Of a stretch of 64,000 nucleotides of DNA, positions 16,298-38,852 are shown piece after piece. A model generated the notes under the pieces. That model was not told the DNA's origin. It ran no database searches and saw nothing but the letters and a program-made list of their open reading frames with translations. The stretch comes from Verrucomicrobiia bacterium. GTDB lineage: Bacteria; Verrucomicrobiota; Verrucomicrobiia; Verrucomicrobiales; DEV007. The DNA is taken from the NCBI GenBank assembly GCA_030427505.1, contig JAUICH010000003.1:124001-188000 (forward strand), given 5' to 3'. Position 1 is the stretch's first letter. Each line of letters begins with the position of its first letter. The translations under genes and the position numbers were made by a program.

Positions 16298-16516
16298 CTA
16301 GGCAGTGTGGACAAATTGGGGGCGGAGCGGCGCGAGGCCATTTTTTGTCTGGCAAGGCGCCGCGAACGGCATTGGGCCTATCCCCAATAGAGTGAGCGGG
16401 AACGAAGCCAGGCAAAAAATGGGCCGCGTCCCCAGGTATTCGCTGCTTCGCGGCGCTGAGTTCTCTTTCCCATTCCTCATATCCGGTCCGTTCTCTAATT
16501 TTTCCACACTGCCTAA
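16298..16516. repeat. CTAG-bounded palindromic element, copy 1 (full length)
   Basis: 219 bases. The left end is CTAGGCAGTGTGGACAAATT and the right end is the inverted form of TTAGGCAGTGTGGAAAAATT, giving terminal inverted repeats of about 20 bases with few mismatches. Inside, 16338-16353 and 16407-16422 are inverted copies with one mismatch (CCATTTTTTG.CTGGC), and ATTGGG (16371-16376) pairs with CCCAAT (16383-16388) at the tip, so the left two-thirds can fold as one long imperfect hairpin. The terminal CTAG at the left and CTAA at the right may be a target duplication. It has no coding potential. It fills most of the gap between the pseudokinase gene and the sulfatase start. Confidence 0.85.
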
Positions 16517-16622
16517 ACCTCTTAGACGAAGGTCCGGAGCTTCGCAAGAGAACCCGGCCCGGCGCTTTGATCGTGGGGGTCGTTGACCCTGTCTGGCCAT
16601 CCCGAAAACCGGCGAGACGCCG

Positions 16623-18761
16623 TTACCAGAAGAGGCGTCCGCGCCGCTTTTTCTTTGGAGCCACAGCCGCCGTGCGCCGCTCCTCCAGGGGCGCAAACTC
16701 TTCGTCATCTATCACGCCCAGCACGACACGCTTGGGAGTCTTGGACATGGAATGTCCGTTGCCGTTTCCATTGCCGTTGCTGTAGCCATTGTGGTTCCCG
16801 CCATTGACGGGCGCCGGCTCGGACTCGGACACACTGGCCGGAACGTCCTGGCAATACTCGCCGTCGTCGATCACGCCAATGGACTCTTCCGGTTCGGCGG
16901 CTTCTTCCAAGCCGGGCTCGTGGGGACCGTGCCCGTTGGAGCCATTCGAACCATTCGCTTCCGTTTTCCGCCACTCGCTCAAGCTATGTCGCTTAACGGA
17001 ATGAGAACTACCATTGAGGGCGGCGCCATTCGAAGCCGGTTGGAACCCGCCGTCGGCAATGACACCCATGCTTTCGACCCGGCTGTAAACCGTCTGTCCC
17101 AGCAGGTCCTCCAATTCGTCCAGAAACTCGCGGCGGCTGAAGCTGTGAACGCAGTTGTCGATGCTCTCGTAGGTCTCCTTAAAGAAAGCGCGCAGGGCCG
17201 TCATTTCGCTGTCTTCGCTTTCGACTGAATCCGCGTCGGGAGCTGGAAGGGGACCGACCGCCAGGAACTCCGCGATGGCCACAAAGCTTTTGGCCAGCAT
17301 CTGGAGGGGGGAGGGAATCTCTTTACTCAGGCGGCCCGCTTCCAGGCGGCCGCTGGGCGGCGGGGTAATCACGCTTTCCAACCCAGCATGGCAGCGCAGC
17401 TTCAAAACGTGCTCCGGCCAGCAGTCCGCGTGACGCTTTTTCAGTTCCCGGATGCGGAACCGGGTCATTCCGGGAAAGTCGATCTGGATGCTGGCGATGG
17501 AGAGATTGCCGACCTGAATCTGGGCGTCTTCCGCCTGGTTCAGCGCGTCCTCTATCTGGTTCAGAATCAGAATCACCTCATGCGCTTCGAGCGACTGATT
17601 CCGGTTCGTCAACATCTCCTGAAAAGAGAACCCATTGACGGGCTCTTCGGCGATGAAGGTGACCCGGTCCGTGTCCCAGAAACCGCGGGGTTTCAGCAGG
17701 TTCGGGTGGTCGTCTTCGCGAATGCGGGACATGGCCGCCATGACCAGCTGCATGTGGTTGACAGGAAACGCGCTCGCCCCTGGCAGACACTGGATGATGC
17801 ACTGACGATCCTTTTCAAAGTCGTGAGCCGCTTTCTCATACGGTCCGAGGCTCTGATCCACCATTTCCTCGGCACGGTAGCGGCCGCCGAGAAGATCCTG
17901 GAGATCCACGTCCTGGAACAGGAACTTGCTCAGTGCGGACCGGGGGAAAAGCTTCGGCAAAACCGGAGTGGTCTGCTGCGGACTGGCACTGGTAATGCGG
18001 GCCGTAACGGCGCCAAGACTGTCCTTCAGTTCCCACCGGAACCCGTCCAGGTTCTTGGGCGCTCCGGTGGAGTGAGTCTCCAGCAAGGCACGAAGCAGAG
18101 ACTTCAGGTTGGCGGGCAGTCCCGGAAGCGCATCCAGCTGCCGTGCCTGTCCGACAACGTAGGGTTGTCCACCCAGTACGAGATAAAGGATCTTGGCAAA
18201 CTCCGCGAGGAGGGAACGCTCCACCGCCCGCATGGAAATATCCGCATCCGGATCCTGACGCTGGGCGAGCCCAAGGTCGACAATCCGCAAACTCAGGAAG
18301 GCTCTTTCAGTGAGCAGCGCCAACAGGCTAGACACACGCAAGCCCCTGAGCAGGGAGGGATACCGCACCAGCTGCCTTACTGAGTCCATCAGTTGCAGCA
18401 TGATTCCCAGGCCCACGGGCATGTCCAGGGGGCCTTTGCAGTCGATGTATTCTTTCAGCGGCTCTCCGTCATTGACCTCCGTGACGTAGTAGAGCATTCC
18501 GTCGAATTCACCCAGATCCACAATCTTGGGGAAACAGGGGCCGCTCAACTGCGACACCATGGAAACCCGCTCGAAAAAGTGTTGGCGATCCCTTTCGGAA
18601 TAGCCGCCCGCATTGGAAATCACATGCAGTTCCACCAAGCCGCTCGTGGCGGTGTCATAGGCCAGACACACCAGTTCCTCAGGCGACCGGTCGAACGACA
18701 ATGGGCTCCCGTCCGGCTTCTGAGAGATGAGGAAGCGATCAAATTTTTCTAGATCGTACAT
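16623..18761 (-). CDS. Tandem pseudokinase-like protein with repeated GVIxD motif tail
   Basis: 712 residues. Residues 25-250 follow the protein-kinase plan without catalytic residues: VELHVI (His46 where VAIK has Lys), FPKIVDLGEFDGMLYYVTEV as the hinge, SLLRGLRVSSLL in place of the HRD loop, and IVDLGLAQ (162-164 DLG in place of DFG). Residues 315-430 repeat the plan (HPNLLKPRGFWDTDRVTFI, then a hinge EEPVNGFS) with no active-site residues. The tail (about 540-712) is disordered, with an Asn-Gly tract and three copies of a motif: MGVIADGGF (565-573), IGVIDDGEY (628-636) and LGVIDDEEF (681-689). It ends with basic KKKRRGRLFW. There is no signal peptide. It is likely a scaffold. ATG 18761 is preferred over TTG 18806. 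Confidence 0.75.
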   Translation of the reverse strand: MYDLEKFDRFLISQKPDGSPLSFDRSPEELVCLAYDTATSGLVELHVISNAGGYSERDRQHFFERVSMVSQLSGPCFPKIVDLGEFDGMLYYVTEVNDGEPLKEYIDCKGPLDMPVGLGIMLQLMDSVRQLVRYPSLLRGLRVSSLLALLTERAFLSLRIVDLGLAQRQDPDADISMRAVERSLLAEFAKILYLVLGGQPYVVGQARQLDALPGLPANLKSLLRALLETHSTGAPKNLDGFRWELKDSLGAVTARITSASPQQTTPVLPKLFPRSALSKFLFQDVDLQDLLGGRYRAEEMVDQSLGPYEKAAHDFEKDRQCIIQCLPGASAFPVNHMQLVMAAMSRIREDDHPNLLKPRGFWDTDRVTFIAEEPVNGFSFQEMLTNRNQSLEAHEVILILNQIEDALNQAEDAQIQVGNLSIASIQIDFPGMTRFRIRELKKRHADCWPEHVLKLRCHAGLESVITPPPSGRLEAGRLSKEIPSPLQMLAKSFVAIAEFLAVGPLPAPDADSVESEDSEMTALRAFFKETYESIDNCVHSFSRREFLDELEDLLGQTVYSRVESMGVIADGGFQPASNGAALNGSSHSVKRHSLSEWRKTEANGSNGSNGHGPHEPGLEEAAEPEESIGVIDDGEYCQDVPASVSESEPAPVNGGNHNGYSNGNGNGNGHSMSKTPKRVVLGVIDDEEFAPLEERRTAAVAPKKKRRGRLFW

Positions 18762-19137
18762 TCCTTGGCAGGATTGATGCGTGGGAAATTTTAGACAAAG
18801 GTGCAAGAAACGCGAGCCTAGAGTCTAATAATTGCTAAAAATGAAGGTTCCTGTGGGCCGGAGTCGAGAAAATTTTCAAGTACTGATAAAAAAGGTTTTC
18901 TACCGTATCCACTATAATTCTCATTTGTGATCTTTCCAAGTAAACTTTTCTGCGAATCTCTCATTTCGGAAACCGGACGAAAAGACCGTTTCTAAAATCG
19001 ACATTTCCGACCGGAATAGGGGAGCGGTATCCACACGAATACCGGAAGTTTGCCTGGGCCATCTCGGCTCTGAAATCCAGCATGGCACTAAAACGGTTGC
19101 GGAACTTTCAAGGTCGGCTATTTGACTGACTCAGACC
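18762..19137. other. Intergenic region between divergent pseudokinase and queD genes
   Basis: 376 bases with no supported gene and visibly more A/T than its surroundings. It must hold the promoters of both divergent genes. TATAAT occurs at 18913-18918 reading toward queD, without a good -35 box at the right distance. A six-pair hairpin (CGGTAT/ATACCG) spans 19025-19044. No preQ1 riboswitch core was found before queD. Confidence 0.5.
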
Positions 19138-19500
19138 GTGCGAGCCCAACTTACCAAAGAATTCTTCTTCGAAGCGGCCCAGACCCTTCCCAATGTACCT
19201 GAAGGTCACAAGTGCAGCCGGATGCATGGGCATAGCTTCAAGGTGGAAATCTCCGTCGAAGGCGAAGTGGATCCCGAAAGCGGATGGGTCTACGACCACG
19301 CCACCATTTCCCGGGCCATGGACCCACTCTTGGACAGGCTGGACCACTCTTACCTGAACGAAATCGAAGGGCTGGAAAACCCCACCATCGAAAACATGGC
19401 GGCCTGGTTTTGGAGAAAGCTGGAGAAGGATTGTCCCGGCCTCTGCGAAATCGTCATTCACGAGACCCCCACGGCCCGCTGCGTGTTTAGAGGATTTTAG
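19138..19500 (+). CDS. queD: 6-carboxytetrahydropterin synthase (QueD)
   Basis: 120 residues, the usual length. QueD turns 7,8-dihydroneopterin triphosphate into 6-carboxy-tetrahydropterin in queuosine and preQ1 synthesis. The zinc and catalytic signature CSRMHGHSF is present (Cys and HxH). Other family segments are WVYDHATISRAM, LDHSYLNEIEGL, NPTIENMAAWFW and the terminal ETPTARCVFRG, where Glu binds the pterin. It starts with GTG at 19138; no Shine-Dalgarno sequence is evident. The His-rich lipoprotein gene follows, and its longest frame overlaps the queD stop by one base (TAGTG). Confidence 0.93.
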   Translation: MRAQLTKEFFFEAAQTLPNVPEGHKCSRMHGHSFKVEISVEGEVDPESGWVYDHATISRAMDPLLDRLDHSYLNEIEGLENPTIENMAAWFWRKLEKDCPGLCEIVIHETPTARCVFRGF

Positions 19501-19547
19501 TGCCTTTTAGTTGCGCGGCGGCGTTATCCTTGCTACGGAGATCGCCG

Positions 19548-19805
19548 ATGATGAAGCAATGGTTTCTTCGAGTCTTTTGTGGAGTGGCCGGTATGGCCCT
19601 CATTACTTTTTTTGCCTCCTGTGACGGGCATTCCTGGGAGAAAACCCACGTCTTGTTTGAAGAGCATGGCAGTCACGGAGGGGAAGAAGGCGGACACGAC
19701 GAACATTCGGACCACTCCGGCCATGAGGAACACGCGGACCATGCCGAGCATGGCGGCGAAGCGCATGGCGAAGAGGCTCACGGCGAAAAAGCGCCCGCCC
19801 ACTAA
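19548..19805 (+). CDS. Small histidine-rich lipoprotein
   Basis: 85 residues. The N-terminus is a lipoprotein signal (MMKQWFLRVFCGVAGMALITF) with FFASC as lipobox-like cleavage site, which would leave a lipidated Cys. The mature peptide is almost only His, Glu, Gly and Ala (EEHGSHGGEEGGHDEHSD and similar), a composition that binds zinc, nickel or copper weakly at many sites. ATG 19548 is chosen because GGAG lies 7 bases upstream and the signal starts there; GTG at 19500 would add 16 unlikely residues. It lies directly after queD, a zinc enzyme gene, and may be cotranscribed with it. Probably an envelope metal buffer, by inference. Confidence 0.72.
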   Translation: MMKQWFLRVFCGVAGMALITFFASCDGHSWEKTHVLFEEHGSHGGEEGGHDEHSDHSGHEEHADHAEHGGEAHGEEAHGEKAPAH

Positions 19806-19815
19806 AACGACAGAT

Positions 19816-19846
19816 AGCCGCCTCTGGCGGTTCGGGAATTTTCCCG
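19816..19846. terminator. Two adjacent short hairpins after the His-rich lipoprotein
   Basis: AGCCGCC-TCT-GGCGGTT (19816-19832) is followed directly by the palindrome CGGGAATTTTCCCG (19833-19846). There is no following T-run, so factor-independent termination is doubtful. They sit between the lipoprotein stop and repeat copy 2, where the two strands' genes converge. Confidence 0.3.
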
Positions 19847-19870
19847 GTCAGTTCGTGTGAGCGGTTTCGC

Positions 19871-20089
19871 CTAGGGTTTGTAGACAAATTGGCGGACTGC
19901 CTGGCGCGAGACCATTTTTCGGCTGGCAAGGCGCGCCGAACGCCGTTGGGTGGTCCCAACAGAGTGAGGCGGAACGCAGCCAGGCGTAAAATGGGCCGCG
20001 CTCTTGCAAAAATCGCCGCTCGCGGCGCTGATTCGATCCCCTTTTTTCATTCAAACCAGGCCGTTCGGGAATTTGTGCATACACCCTAG
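19871..20089. repeat. CTAG-bounded palindromic element, copy 2 (full length, diverged)
   Basis: 219 bases, the same length as copy 1. It begins CTAGGGTTTGTAGACAAATT and ends with the inverse of CTAGGGTGTATGCACAAATT. It shares with copy 1 the segments GACAAATTGG, GGCGCGAG, CCATTTTT, CTGGCAAGGCGC, AGAGTGAG, GCCAGGC and AAAATGGGCCGCG in the same order and spacing. The inner stem is GTTGGG/CCCAAC, a compensated change from ATTGGG/CCCAAT in copy 1, which suggests the fold is kept. It lies between convergent genes, and its right CTAG carries the TAG stop of fabF (20086-20088 read on the minus strand). Confidence 0.82.
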
Positions 20090-21330
20090 ATCTGGCGAAA
20101 CAATAGGGCGGAATTGATACCGCCAAACCCGAAGGCGTGGTTCAGGACAACCCGGATGGGGTGCTCCACGCACGATTCGGGAACCAGGTCCAGATTCAGC
20201 TCCGGGTCCGGTTCCTTCAGGTTCAGAGTAGCGGGAGCGATACCGTGCCGCATGGCCAGCAGGCAGATGGCTGCCTCCACCGCGCCGGCGGCTCCCAGTC
20301 CGTGACCGGTATAGGGTTTGATGCCCGACACTTTGAGGCGGGGATTGGCTTGCCGGTCTCCGAAGATCTTCTGGATGGCCTGGCCTTCATTGCGGTCGTT
20401 GTAGGGCGTGCCACTGGCGTGCGCGCAAATGTAGTCCACCTCCTCGGGGCGCACCCCGGTGCGGGTCAGGGCCTCCTGAATGGTAATCATCAGCGGCTTT
20501 CCCGAGGGATCGGGAGAGGTCATGTGGTACGCCTCCGTGGTGACGCCGCCTCCGAGGACTTCCGCGTAAATGGAAGCGCCCCGTTTCCGCGCGGCTTCCC
20601 ATTCCTCCACCACCATGACGGCGCCGCCCTCTCCCATGACGAAGCCGTCGCGCTTGACGTCAAAGGAGCAATACGCCGCCGAGGAGGGATCCGTCTCCAG
20701 GCGGCTCATGGAGTTTAGGTTGTCGAATGCGGCGAAGGTCAGGGGCGCCAGGGGAGCCTCCGCGCCTCCGGCCAGGACCGCGTCTGCCAGACCCTCGCGA
20801 ATCATCCGGCAGGCATTCAGCAGGGCTACGTTTCCGGCCGCGCAGGAATCTGAATTCGTGGTTCCCGGACCGCGCAGCCCCAGGTGTAGGGCGACATTGG
20901 TGTGCGCGGTGGCGCCGAAAACGCGGTAGGCCAGGGATCGCGATACCGCCCGGGGGCCTTTTTCCAGAAAAGCGGCATGGTCCGCCTCGGCTTGGGAGAA
21001 TCCCCCCAATGCGGTGCCAAAGGCGGTACCGATTCGGGTATTGTCTGCTTCGCGATCGATCTCCAGCCCACTGTCCTCCAGGGCCATCTCAGACGCGGCC
21101 AAGGCAAACTGCGCCATCCGGTCCATCCGCCGGCTGGTCACCTTGTCCAGCCATTTCAGCGGATCGAAGTCCCGGACTTCGGCAGCCAGCTTCGACCGGA
21201 ATGGAGTGCTGTCGAACGCCGTGATTGGCCCAATCCCGCTCCGGTGGTTCAGGATGTTTTGCCACACCGCACTGGTTCCGATCCCGATGGGGGTGACGAG
21301 ACCGATTCCAGTAACAACAGCGCGTCTCAT
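20086..21330 (-). CDS. fabF: 3-oxoacyl-ACP synthase II (FabF type)
   Basis: 414 residues, the usual length. It condenses malonyl-ACP with acyl-ACP in fatty-acid elongation. The active-site Cys is in TNSDSCAAGNVAL, the two His in ICAHASGTPYND and KPYTGHGLGAAGAVE, and the C-terminal FGFGGINSALLF loop is intact. The N-terminus MRRAVVTGIGLVTPIG is standard. The TAG stop is formed by the terminal CTAG of repeat copy 2, but the protein ends where the family ends, so nothing seems lost. It follows the GtrA-like gene by 64 bases. No acyl carrier protein gene is nearby, so a role in secondary or lipid metabolism beside another FabF cannot be excluded. Confidence 0.92.
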   Translation of the reverse strand: MRRAVVTGIGLVTPIGIGTSAVWQNILNHRSGIGPITAFDSTPFRSKLAAEVRDFDPLKWLDKVTSRRMDRMAQFALAASEMALEDSGLEIDREADNTRIGTAFGTALGGFSQAEADHAAFLEKGPRAVSRSLAYRVFGATAHTNVALHLGLRGPGTTNSDSCAAGNVALLNACRMIREGLADAVLAGGAEAPLAPLTFAAFDNLNSMSRLETDPSSAAYCSFDVKRDGFVMGEGGAVMVVEEWEAARKRGASIYAEVLGGGVTTEAYHMTSPDPSGKPLMITIQEALTRTGVRPEEVDYICAHASGTPYNDRNEGQAIQKIFGDRQANPRLKVSGIKPYTGHGLGAAGAVEAAICLLAMRHGIAPATLNLKEPDPELNLDLVPESCVEHPIRVVLNHAFGFGGINSALLFRQI

Positions 21331-21394
21331 TCAGGGGGGAGCAACGGCGGCCGCCCATTTCCCGTGGGAGGCCCCTAGGTGTCTGCAATAGATG

Positions 21395-21928
21395 TTACTT
21401 CGCGAAAATGAACAGCTTCCGGCACACGTAGTTCACCAGAACCGAGGTAATCAGGAAACCTCCCTGGGCAAAATAGGTGGAAATTCCCAGCCACCGGATC
21501 AGCAACGGACCGCCGAACAAGCCTGCCGCGAAACTGATGGCGGCAACAGCGGTGAAAAGCCAGAACTCTTTCCAGCGGGAGTGCCGCCCGCCCGTAAAGA
21601 CCCACATGGCGTTCAGCACATAGGCCGTGATGTTCGCAAAGGGAAAGGCGATGGCGTTATTGATGATCAAATGGCTGGTACGGATTTCGTCCGTGATTGG
21701 CAGGCCATTCACCATCATGCCTTCCATGGCCGGAATCAGCGTGTAAGAGAGCAGGAAGACGATGCCGTGGTGCACAATGGTCGCGGCCGCGCCACAGATG
21801 GAATATTTCACAAACTGGGCCGTGCCCGGGGCTTCGCGGGAGTGCAGCAGCCCTACCGTGCTTTGGAAACCCTTTTCGCGGAAGTGGTTCCAGATGTGTC
21901 CGATATCTTTGACGATGATGCCGATCAT
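21395..21928 (-). CDS. GtrA-like membrane protein
   Basis: 177 residues from ATG 21928, with four hydrophobic helices: VKYSICGAAATIVHHGIVFLL, one in the centre (IAFPFANITAYVLNAMWVF), LFTAVAAISFAAGLFGGPLL and LITSVLVNYVCRKLFIF. The FVKYxxxG start and the NYVCRKLFIF end are typical of the GtrA family, which helps move lipid-linked sugars across the membrane. Its ATG overlaps the stop of the upstream TIM-barrel gene as ATGA, so the two are translationally coupled. The link to a sugar isomerase fits a role in surface glycan supply. Confidence 0.87.
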   Translation of the reverse strand: MIGIIVKDIGHIWNHFREKGFQSTVGLLHSREAPGTAQFVKYSICGAAATIVHHGIVFLLSYTLIPAMEGMMVNGLPITDEIRTSHLIINNAIAFPFANITAYVLNAMWVFTGGRHSRWKEFWLFTAVAAISFAAGLFGGPLLIRWLGISTYFAQGGFLITSVLVNYVCRKLFIFAK

Positions 21929-22848
21929 TTTGAGTCTTCGTTTCCAAACCTTTCGCGCCAATTCTGGAGAGATTTCTTAATATCTCTGGATCGCCGGCGG
22001 GGGTTCATTTCCCATACCAGGGGCAGGTCAGACGGGACCATCTCCAACAATCGCTCATAGTCAATCGATCCGTGAAAGGGCGGGTGGTGATCCTGGTCAG
22101 GCCAGACGACATCGTGCAGATGGCAGCCCACCAAACGGTGGCGCACCCGGCTCAGCCATTCTGTGTGATCCAGCAGGGCCAGGTTTGCCTTTCTCTGGAC
22201 GTGCCCGAAGTCGTGCCAGTAGCCGACGAAGGGGGAGGGGAACTCCTCCAGGAGCGCTTCCAGTTCGCGTTCGCTGGGCACCTCTTCGTAGTGGCTGCGG
22301 CTCTCGATCGCCAGGGAGACGCGCTTCTCTTCGGCATACGGAACCAGGATGCGGAGGATCTCGCGGGCACGCTCCAGGTAGGCCGTGGCGATGGCTTCGC
22401 GCTCCTCCACGAACTTCAGTTTCTCCTTCACATACCGCCGGGTGTGAATCTGACCATCCCGCGCCATCTGCTCCAGCTTGGCGGTGCGGCGGCGCACGGG
22501 GACGCTGCCCAGGTGGAGCACCACGTAGTCCGCATCGAACTCCATGGCGGTGTCGATAGACTTCAGCGTAAGCTTCAGAGCCCGCTCGCGTTCGGACGGC
22601 TTTCCGGACGTGAACTCATAGGCGTCCGGCGCATCCATGATCACTTCCACCGGCGAGGGGCAGAAATTGTGGACCCCGCTCACCCGGATACGGCCTTTCT
22701 CGAATGCGTCCTTGAACCCCGGAAGCAGGGTGATCTTCATCCCGTGGCTGAGCTCCATCCATTCGAACCCGAGCAAGAGCACCTCATTGACCAGCTCTTC
22801 GCCATTCGTGTGCCGGTGACCATTCCAGCATGTCGAAAATGAGAGCAT
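21925..22848 (-). CDS. Sugar phosphate isomerase/epimerase-like TIM barrel
   Basis: 307 residues from ATG 22848. It reads as an AP-endonuclease-2/xylose-isomerase-like TIM barrel. Metal-ligand segments can be seen: ADYVVLHLGSV, LAIESRSHYEE (Glu), YWHDFGHVQ (Asp/His), VGCHLHDVVWPDQDHHP (His-x-His-Asp) and LVWEMNPR (Glu near the C-terminus). The family isomerises or epimerises sugars or cleaves related rings with a divalent metal. The exact substrate cannot be told. It is the first of the pair with the GtrA-like gene (ATGA overlap). Repeat copy 3 lies 150 bases upstream of its start. Confidence 0.85.
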   Translation of the reverse strand: MLSFSTCWNGHRHTNGEELVNEVLLLGFEWMELSHGMKITLLPGFKDAFEKGRIRVSGVHNFCPSPVEVIMDAPDAYEFTSGKPSERERALKLTLKSIDTAMEFDADYVVLHLGSVPVRRRTAKLEQMARDGQIHTRRYVKEKLKFVEEREAIATAYLERAREILRILVPYAEEKRVSLAIESRSHYEEVPSERELEALLEEFPSPFVGYWHDFGHVQRKANLALLDHTEWLSRVRHRLVGCHLHDVVWPDQDHHPPFHGSIDYERLLEMVPSDLPLVWEMNPRRRSRDIKKSLQNWRERFGNEDSK

Positions 22849-22997
22849 AAACGAAGGGATCTGCCGCTCCGAACGCGGCGGGATGCGAAAGACCGCCAAG
22901 GAATCTTACCTGAAGCGGATTTCAAGAGATTTTGGAAACCACGAAGTGGCCTTGTGAAATCCAAAGTTCGATTTCGGCGTCCAGCGGATAGCCAACT

Positions 22998-23095
22998 CTA
23001 GGCAGTGTGGACAAATTGGGGGCGGACCGGCGCGAGAGCCTTTCTTGTCTGGCAAGGCGCCGTGAGAACGGCATTGGGCCTACCACGCTGCCTAG
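22998..23095. repeat. CTAG-bounded palindromic element, copy 3 (internally deleted)
   Basis: 98 bases. The first 84 or so match copy 1 nearly base for base (CTAGGCAGTGTGGACAAATT through CGGCATTGGGCCTA) and then jump to CCACGCTGCCTAG, the last 13 bases of the element. The terminal inverted repeat is perfect over CTAGGCAG. Both ends carry CTAG. The right CTAG supplies the TAG stop of rsmI (23092-23094, minus strand). Loss of the middle with both ends kept is what is expected of a miniature element. Confidence 0.85.
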
Positions 23096-23850
23096 GCATC
23101 CGGGGGAACATACAGCCACTTCGGCAGCTTGGTGCCCGCCACGATGAGGGTGATTTCGCCCTTTACGGAGGGTTTGGCGGCAAACTCCGCTTGAACCGTG
23201 GCGGCCGTGCCCCGGTGGAAGGTTTCAAACTTCTTGGAAAGCTCCCGAGCCACGCAAAGAAGCCGCCCGGGAGCCAGTTCCGCCATCATGCCCAGGGTGG
23301 TCAGGATGCGGTGGGGAGATTCGAAAAAGACACTGCTGTACTCCCGCTCCAGGGCCGCGGTCAGTTCCCGGGTCTTCTGCCCTTTCTTATGAGGCAGGAA
23401 ACCGCCATAATAGAACTGATCCGCTGGCAATCCCGAACCGATGAGGCCGGTCAGGACGGCGGAAGCGCCGGGCAAGACCTCATGGGGAACGCCCTGTGCC
23501 AGGCAACGCTGGATGAGCCGTTGCCCGGGATCTGATATTCCCGGCATTCCGGCATCGGACAGGCAGGCCACCAGTTCACCTTCCGCGGCCCGGTTGGCCA
23601 GCTCTTCCGAGCGGGAGGCCTCGTTATGCTCGTGAAAGCTCACCAGCGGCTTGTGAATGCCGTAGTGGTGCAGGAGCCGGCTGGAGTGCCGGGTGTCCTC
23701 ACAGGCGACTACGTCCGCCTCCTTGAGCGTTTCCAGGGCCCGTAGCGTGATGTCCGCCAAATTGCCGATCGGGCTCGGGACCAGCACCACGCGGCCGCGA
23801 AAGCTGGCGCCAGCCGGTTGGGGCTCTCCTGATTGCTCGTCTCCTCCCAT
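23092..23850 (-). CDS. rsmI: 16S rRNA (cytidine-2'-O)-methyltransferase RsmI
   Basis: 252 residues. RsmI methylates the ribose of C1402 in 16S rRNA using S-adenosylmethionine. Family motifs: VPSPIGNLADITLRALE at the N-terminus, VVACEDTRHSSRLLHHYGI, SFHEHNEASRSEE, LVACLSDAGMPGISDPG and LPGASAVLTGLIGSGLP. The C-terminus is a little shorter than in E. coli. Its stop codon TAG is part of the terminal CTAG of repeat copy 3, so the element inserted at the very end of the gene or the end was trimmed. The LptE-like gene lies 132 bases upstream on the same strand. Confidence 0.94.
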   Translation of the reverse strand: MGGDEQSGEPQPAGASFRGRVVLVPSPIGNLADITLRALETLKEADVVACEDTRHSSRLLHHYGIHKPLVSFHEHNEASRSEELANRAAEGELVACLSDAGMPGISDPGQRLIQRCLAQGVPHEVLPGASAVLTGLIGSGLPADQFYYGGFLPHKKGQKTRELTAALEREYSSVFFESPHRILTTLGMMAELAPGRLLCVARELSKKFETFHRGTAATVQAEFAAKPSVKGEITLIVAGTKLPKWLYVPPDA

Positions 23851-38634: not shown

Positions 38635-38852
38635 CAAGTGTGGTGTTTGCGAAATAGGTGGACGAAATTCGCGAGGAATCTTTTTCAAATTCAAGGAGCG
38701 AGGAGGGAGTTGAGCAAGCTCAACGACTGATCGAGCAACGCGGAAGATGGAAAAGAAGACCGCGATAATAAAAATATCCGAGCGAAGCGAGCCAATTTCC
38801 GGCTCTAGAACTCAATTGATTTCGTCTAGATATTTCGCAAACACCACACTAG
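38635..38852. repeat. CTAG-type palindromic element 4 (diverged relative)
   Basis: 218 bases. The left end CAAG-TGTGGTGTTTGCGAAATA and the right end, the inverse of CTAG-TGTGGTGTTTGCGAAATA, give an 18-base perfect inverted repeat next to CAAG/CTAG; a weaker match continues inward (GACGAAAT). The length, the C(T/A)AG ends and internal order (GCGAGG, T-run, a central GTTGAGC/GCTCAAC hairpin, then GGAAG and ACCGCG) resemble copies 1-3, but the sequence is far from theirs. It could be a second family member or an unrelated element. It lies 8 bases past the lipA stop and 34 bases before the lipoprotein start. Confidence 0.72.

Follow-up and report, generated by a model that had tools for sequence, protein, structure and literature searches.

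The window analyzed here, the whole stretch of 64,000 nucleotides from contig JAUICH010000003.1 of a Verrucomicrobiia bacterium belonging to the order Verrucomicrobiales, harbors three copies of a small palindromic element, designated c1, c2, and c3. The left end of c1 is located 8 nt upstream of the codon (16290 to 16288, minus strand) presumed to start a sulfatase gene (Sulfatase, PF00884), and the right-end TAG of c2, read on the minus strand, constitutes the stop codon of a ketoacyl-synthase open reading frame (ORF) at positions 20086 to 21330, as assigned by Pfam. The right-end TAG of c3 likewise serves, on the minus strand, as the stop codon of an rsmI-like ORF (TP_methylase by Pfam; 23092 to 23850), this copy being flanked by the rsmI-like gene on one side and by an AP_endonuc_2 gene on the other. 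A recheck of the letters confirmed what the preliminary description had reported for the three copies, namely, their positions (16298 to 16516, 19871 to 20089, and 22998 to 23095), their lengths of 219, 219, and 98 bases, the segments common to the two 219-base copies in order and spacing, the lack of the middle in the third copy, the CTAG at the copy ends (CTAA at one right end), and the inner-stem change from ATTGGG/CCCAAT to GTTGGG/CCCAAC. The size of the two full copies is here corrected to 217 bp from TA to TA, representing a 213-bp element and two TA dinucleotides. Their designation as palindromic miniature elements is supported by folding, by the presence of many copies, and by the existence elsewhere in the genome of an IS5-family element that shares their ends. 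It is proposed that the copies are probably non-autonomous miniature transposons (miniature inverted-repeat transposable elements [MITEs]) with IS5-type ends and a conserved core module that different IS5-type transposases could move.

Table 1. Elements and core hairpins in the window; R2 denotes the broader core model used for the phylum search
Feature	Position	Strand	R2 score (bits)	Remarks
Copy c1 (A1 type), TA to TA	16299..16515	+		Element proper 16301-16513; target C-TA-A
Copy c2 (A2 type), TA to TA	19872..20088	+		Target C-TA-G
Copy c3, internally deleted	22999..23094	+		Left half and right terminal repeat kept; target C-TA-G
Core hairpin of c1	16328..16428	+	87.5	c1 is among the input sequences of R2
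Core hairpin of c2	19902..20000	+	93.3	c2 is also in the input of R2
Fourth element, type C	38638..38849	+	63.5 (core)	Ends GTGTGGTGTTTGCGAAATA; core at 38667-38764; not in the model

The type C element, which had been overlooked in the preliminary description, carries the same core as c1 and c2 but other ends; its right TA is intact (38850 to 38851), and its left TA has decayed to AA. Three weaker R2 matches in the window, one of which is c3, are at chance level (E values of 0.09 to 0.14). A search of the window for relatives of the partner transposase described below yielded none, which, for this group of transposases, agrees with the earlier remark that no transposase is present.

The genome from which the window derives (6.41 Mb in 56 contigs, 96.5% complete) is the sole representative of its genus among the genomes compared. 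A whole-genome search disposed of the possibility that no further copies exist: the end pattern, with up to three mismatches, occurs 99 plus 101 times, compared to 0 plus 0 for a reversed control pattern, and near-full-length matches to c1 are present in at least 40 places, comprising c1 and 39 others at 88 to 94% identity (the best 40 of 155 candidates scored). Because each per-genome search scored the best 10 to 40 candidates only, genome and copy counts are to be read as lower bounds. Within a sample of 1.353 Mb of this genome, assembled as 69 merged segments that were partly picked for bearing copies, 64 copies and one 860-bp insertion sequence (IS) could be paired. Exactly 217 bp from TA to TA was measured for 38 of the 64 copies, the overall range being 113 to 297 bp, with shorter forms of 113 to 115, 137, and 197 bp and longer forms of 294 to 297 bp. 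The 294- to 295-bp form (C17:99189, C56:71900, C9:165589, C52:4768, and C45:116736) contains approximately 78 extra bp, seemingly inside the core hairpin, and the 115-bp forms are devoid of the core. Copies at the end of contig C22 and at both the start and the end of contig C39 are identical over all 125 bp available, which suggests recent copying.

The preliminary description had offered CTAG as either a target duplication or a part of the element end. Where the TA was intact, the base outside the left TA was C or T in 57 of 58 cases and that outside the right TA was G or A in 52 of 54, while the innermost element bases were G on the left and C on the right, each in 63 of the 64 copies. Both TA dinucleotides are intact in 48 copies, whose targets read CTAG (24 copies), TTAG (10), CTAA (8), TTAA (4), and TTAC (2), 46 thus conforming to YTAR; the TA is altered at one or both ends in the other 16. 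Since the flanking 4-mers are identical in only 23 of the 64 copies, TA rather than CTAG represents the repeated part. A 4-base CTAG duplication is accordingly not borne out, and an assignment to the IS5 subgroup with a 4-bp YTAR duplication was rejected on the same count, whereas the second option holds in part, as the inner G and C belong to the element and the TA to the YTAR target. CTAG is the most used target (24/48), although it is the least frequent YTAR form among the four tallied in the 1.353 Mb (613 CTAG, 952 TTAG, 869 CTAA, and 880 TTAA); by rough arithmetic, base composition would predict approximately 4,900 occurrences of CTAG in this sample. Adjacent elements joined by one TA were observed at loci L045 (242 to 277) and L058 (5435 to 5470), and at locus L060 on contig C48 (reverse strand, 1087 to 2360), an A2 element, an element of type B, and the 860-bp IS stand in a row with a single shared TA at each joint. 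One shared TA is expected in tandem copies if the end of one element supplies the target of the next.

The autonomous IS with the same ends that had been sought was found outside the window. Its one full copy, on contig C48, measures 860 bp including both TA dinucleotides, has the ends TAGGCAGTGTGGACAAATA and TAGGCAGAGTGGACAAATT, and is bordered by C and G (a CTAG site); its 5′ ends recur at four contig ends and its 3′ ends at two more, and contigs C40, C11, C12, and C51 start within a different sequence bearing the same end. The match between this IS and the A1 element is confined to the terminal 18 to 19 bp. Two ORFs in different frames are present, and the 231-amino-acid frame matches NF033580 (IS5_3) with 225 bits (cut-off, 110), DDE_Tnp_1 and DUF4096 also scoring above their cut-offs, which supports the IS5-family link suggested earlier. 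Relatives of this IS in genome G016 (69%) and in an Opitutales metagenome-assembled genome (MAG; 58%) have similar ends and also lie at CTAG. In the MAG (locus L076; 1641 to 1835 and 1807 to 2677), the related IS interrupts or ends a short frame resembling the start of C-5 DNA methylases (PF00145); joining the flanks without the IS restored no convincing DNA-methylase-like frame. The transposase of the 860-bp element, which is IS427-like by size, ends, and TA repeat, would recognize the ends of approximately 18 bp and direct insertion at YTAR sites with duplication of the TA, and the ends common to this IS and the copies suggest mobilization of the latter in trans. With respect to a corresponding partner for the A2 type, 2.5 kb around an IS5-like fragment on contig C28 contained no A2-type ends, and genome G063 gave no match to P0001 at 1e-10.

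Between the ends lies a core that is predicted to fold as one strand into a hairpin of approximately 95 nt with tandem G.A mismatches, accompanied in most representatives by a small 3′ hairpin. In genome G063, which belongs to another genus of the same family, the copies measure 206 to 217 bp (215 to 217 bp in 7 of 8) and have the same interior. A model of the approximately 100-nt core, R1, applied across the order at an E value of 1e-4, found relatives in 36 of the 386 genomes (17 of the 50 genera), and the broader R2, based on 23 cores and applied across the phylum at 1e-5, did so in 26 of the 387 genomes (19 of the 198 genera), the genome under study being included in both counts. Applied to 1.168 Mb of this genome, R2 identified 31 cores at an E value of 0.01. 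The 23 aligned cores, as well as the 15 representatives used for fold prediction, were picked by hand. Searches against Rfam returned only a tRNA in the window, no match over the gathering cut-off at 20 core loci, and a single match at an E value of 2.9 in a permissive scan of c1; the literature searched (mostly without subscription papers) likewise contains no description of the element family or its core, consistent with the earlier statement that the family appears undescribed. Outside the phylum, the exact pattern was absent from viral contigs, and blastn gave no match in plasmids or Escherichia coli, although these are weak tests. The core hairpin is also present outside the class, at loci L240 (G671) and L241 (G470), where no terminal repeats are recognizable and where it might represent an older or independent form.

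Across the order, the flanks of the core are arranged alike but carry other ends, most of which lie at TA. Core-bearing elements end in GGGTGTGTTCGAAAA in G067 and G015, in GGAGACYGTTGAAAAA in G004 and G016, in GCAGCCTGTTGAAAAA in G331, in AGAACCTGTTTGGATAAAAA in G089, in GACCTTTTGCCAGAAA in G006, and in GGGAAGCGCTGATTAA in G235, with more besides. Automatic delimitation of ends covered 30 of 40 loci, of which 19 have an end match of at least 12/16 (one, L194, being spurious), and other ends were read by eye; those of L124 bear a looser likeness, also by eye, to an IS in G006. Eleven loci from the phylum search added credible new ends in G161, G139, G137, and G151, all within the order, together with A2-type ends in the genome under study. 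As credible ends derive only from loci of the order, the diversity of ends applies within the order, and it is the core alone that extends beyond it. The genome under study itself contains at least three dissimilar end types on the core, namely, A, B (GTGCTCTGACCGCCTTAA), and C, with a few others recognized by eye. The A1 ends match its IS5_3-type IS, the sole match between ends and transposase found in this genome, while another IS, which is present in G287 and encodes a 324-amino-acid protein assigned to IS5_4 (327 bits; cut-off, 140), has ends matching those of a core-bearing element in G235. The latter is the only clear fit between IS ends and element ends in other genomes, and it spans two genomes. 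By BLASTP, the two transposases do not match each other significantly, although both are assigned to the IS5 family by profiles. Recurrence of the core with different terminal repeats implies that different IS5-type transposases could move it. In G161, a core hairpin (locus L289) is found next to an 866-bp IS5-type element. With seven occurrences of the transposase of this element in a one-contig genome, the setting is suited to the study of nesting.

It is conceivable, though less likely, that the ends changed step by step along with their transposases, without any exchange, all elements forming one vertically inherited lineage; several ends do share wording (GGGTGTGTTC and CTGTTGAAAAA), and A1 and A2 ends differ by 2 to 3 bases. 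Against such a lineage stand the dissimilar types A, B, and C, which share one core within a single genome, and ends that match two different transposase groups. Copies that mix A1 and A2 ends and bodies also exist, and the dissimilar A, B, and C ends constitute the stronger evidence for an exchange of ends. The explanations weighed here and below overlap, and the likelihoods assigned to them need not sum to one.

Single-strand folding of the three window copies exceeds that of dinucleotide shuffles (z scores of −7.1, −3.9, and −4.2), none of 200 shuffles reaching the value of any copy. In the alignment of 23 cores, 94.3% of cells pair, compared to 72.8 in shuffles; double changes occur in 16 of 19 pairs (9.6 ± 1.5 in shuffles) and in 76 cells (17.3 in shuffles), and the covariation score of 0.584 compares to 0.168 in shuffles and approximately 0.2 after a one-column partner shift. 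Among 22 near relatives, both sides have changed in 7 of 31 pairs, against 3.9 in shuffles. The preliminary description had read a compensated change as a sign that folding is selected; that lone change is weak by itself, but the covariation across many related elements supports the claim. Of the 2×2 internal loops in predicted folds of the 15 representatives, 23 of 36 are GA/GA, compared to 7 of 296 in mononucleotide shuffles, with at least one such loop in 12 of the 15, and the core strand is predicted to be more stable than its complement in 15/15.

A fold of this kind could also be a relic. Palindromes can be homogenized between their arms, and the hairpin body of plain MITEs might be passive filler from an ancestral palindrome, its pairing reflecting origin and inter-arm templated repair. 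Individual copies do lose pairing, in that substitutions in 40 A1 copies have left 71 broken pairs against 79 kept and 13 compensated, with paired sites changing at 4.3% and unpaired sites at 7.4%. Nevertheless, this account is considered improbable, because templated repair would erase mismatches, yet the GA/GA loops are conserved, and because the body, unlike the ends, is conserved across genera and families. A palindrome kept only through arm-to-arm repair would lose these mismatches. The strand-specific fold suggests a core that may function in single-stranded form, as RNA or as DNA. Any selection would operate on spreading copies and not on every resident copy.

The relationship of the copies to genes was assessed with a simple ORF caller (at least 100 codons), by which 50 of the 64 copies were classifiable, the other 14 lying too close to a segment edge. 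Forty-eight are intergenic (19 between convergent, 25 between tandem, and 4 between divergent ORFs) and 2 lie inside an ORF, whereas 60 to 64% of control YTAR sites lie inside ORFs and 36 to 40% are intergenic. Of 63 nearest 3′-end distances, 13 place the copy exactly at a stop codon, the boundary TAG serving as the stop, and of the 18 copies that abut an ORF end, one orientation is seen in 13 and the other in 5. At least 100 open codons end at the boundary TAG in 23 of 108 boundaries, the corresponding numbers for the other two frames being 13 and 7. A site preference for stop codons was rejected, as long frames terminate at control CTAG sites with similar frequency (17%, 18%, and 16%), a result which suggests survival of tolerated insertions rather than choice, the first G of the element remaking the TAG; the 3′-end placement is thus best read as tolerated insertion. 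Most surviving insertions lie between genes, and many are placed exactly at a stop codon. Joining the flanks of 65 elements (the 64 copies and the IS) yielded numerous junction frames, none of which was convincing as a gene, as judged by eye and without a family search. A coding role for the element was also rejected: although a minus-strand frame is open throughout in 33 of 40 A1 copies (the stop formed by TA plus R), two other frames are open in 35 and 28 of the 40, the reading frame shifts in A2 and G063 copies, and the substitution pattern of 32 of the 217-bp copies is neutral, with a synonymous share of 0.284 compared to an expected 0.288.

Mobility was examined at the rsmI locus of c3. 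Sixty-six relatives have an rsmI match, the loci of 29 were taken, and 13 of the 29 retain the gene pair that flanks c3. No A-type element or end match was present at any of the 29 loci, including these 13, nor was a core match at an E value of 0.1. As these relatives belong to other genera, the comparison demonstrates absence of the element and not a base-exact empty site. The empty-site expectation of the preliminary description is consequently answered in part: c3 is missing from 13 loci with the same gene pair, although none provides a base-exact empty site. For c3, the objection that the sequence might be in place at all orthologous loci does not hold.

The same placement data bear on whether the core benefits the host as a regulatory RNA or 3′-end element (an mRNA stabilizer, an RNase III site, or a terminator) that is spread by transposons. 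The copies positioned exactly at stop codons, the 19 of 48 intergenic copies between convergent ORFs, the orientation shared by 13 of the 18 copies at ORF ends, and a fold that favors one strand all agree with such a role. It is nonetheless judged unlikely, since 5 of the 18 are in opposite orientation, the 3′-end bias is explicable by purifying selection against promoter or gene disruption, the control CTAG sites behave similarly, and c3 is absent from relatives. An IS630/Tc1-type element, a group for which TA duplication and a preference for CTAG are known and with which the observed target is compatible, can be dismissed almost entirely, as DDE_3 (PF13358) has zero matches at an E value of 0.01 in the whole genome, and an IS5-type element carrying the same ends exists there.

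A number of observations weigh against the reading of the copies as MITEs whose core is moved by different IS5-type transposases. Transposition itself was unobserved. Copies with mixed A1 and A2 ends and bodies could be the product of mutation and are weak evidence for exchange. At six of the 11 phylum-search loci, which lie outside the order, automatic ends were spurious (G569, where ends are legible by eye) or lacking (G418, G671, G470, G637, and G638), those in G671 and G470 resembling a bare core hairpin. An IS5_3-type transposase at an E value of 1e-10 is missing in 7 of 15 core-bearing genomes searched, including G235, G063, and G067, and in G016, G161, G089, G137, G004, G006, and G287, the IS5-type elements that could be delimited have ends unlike those of the core-bearing elements found alongside them in each genome; fragmentary assemblies may partly explain the missing partners. 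The phylum alignment was hand-chosen, and the models are derived from it. Finally, broken pairs in the A1 copies (71) are nearly as numerous as kept and compensated pairs together (92), indicating that single copies decay.

Several known systems resemble parts of this arrangement. Members of the IS427 group of the IS5 family measure 832 to 865 bp, have ends of 13 to 21 bp and mostly 2-bp duplications, and include elements with two overlapping ORFs, according to the portion of the source consulted (PMC3281130); the partner IS is similar in its 860 bp from TA to TA, its two ORFs in different frames, and its TA duplication, whereas the miniature copies are gene-less and have only their ends in common with it. 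MITEPsy1 of Pseudomonas syringae is a 100-bp MITE, tentatively related to IS5, that inserts at CTAG or YTAA and was trapped in transposition tests (PMC3189936); it differs in its 4-bp duplication, and that source, in the part available, describes no conserved core, compared to the TA, 213 bp, and structured core of the present element. RUP, Correia/NEMIS, ERIC, and CIR are short palindromic intergenic mobile repeats, some of which fold in mRNA (PMC2229807). RUP is alike in its TA targets and IS partner, but no core common to different terminal repeats is described for any of the four in the accessible portion of that account. Palindromic GTAG/CGTC REP repeats, the GTAG kind of which is abundant in the verrucomicrobial O. 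terrae, measure 20 to 40 bp and carry a tag at one end, as far as the sections seen of that report indicate (PMC3733652), in contrast to the long terminal inverted repeats and TA described here.

A miniature element at CTAG is thus of a known kind; the new part is a conserved core with many ends. The core may represent a single conserved module, accompanied by different terminal repeats within the order and recognized as a core across the phylum, which would most likely help the element to spread or to be tolerated rather than serve a host gene. More tentatively, and with a probability that we place slightly short of even, it could be a selfish, phylum-wide domain folding as one strand with stacked tandem G.A pairs, which acts as RNA or single-stranded DNA and acquires the ends of whichever IS5-type transposase is present. 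Bacterial MITEs are usually regarded as short-lived deletion products of one IS. In these elements, the interior is conserved and under structural constraint in different genera despite the differing ends, so that the body may instead be the lasting unit. Selection on a MITE body, the role of its fold, and the gain of new ends thereby become testable, and a covariance model could find such elements where terminal repeats cannot. Core-bearing elements may likewise account for small intergenic palindromes that lack annotation and for breaks between contigs in these genomes.

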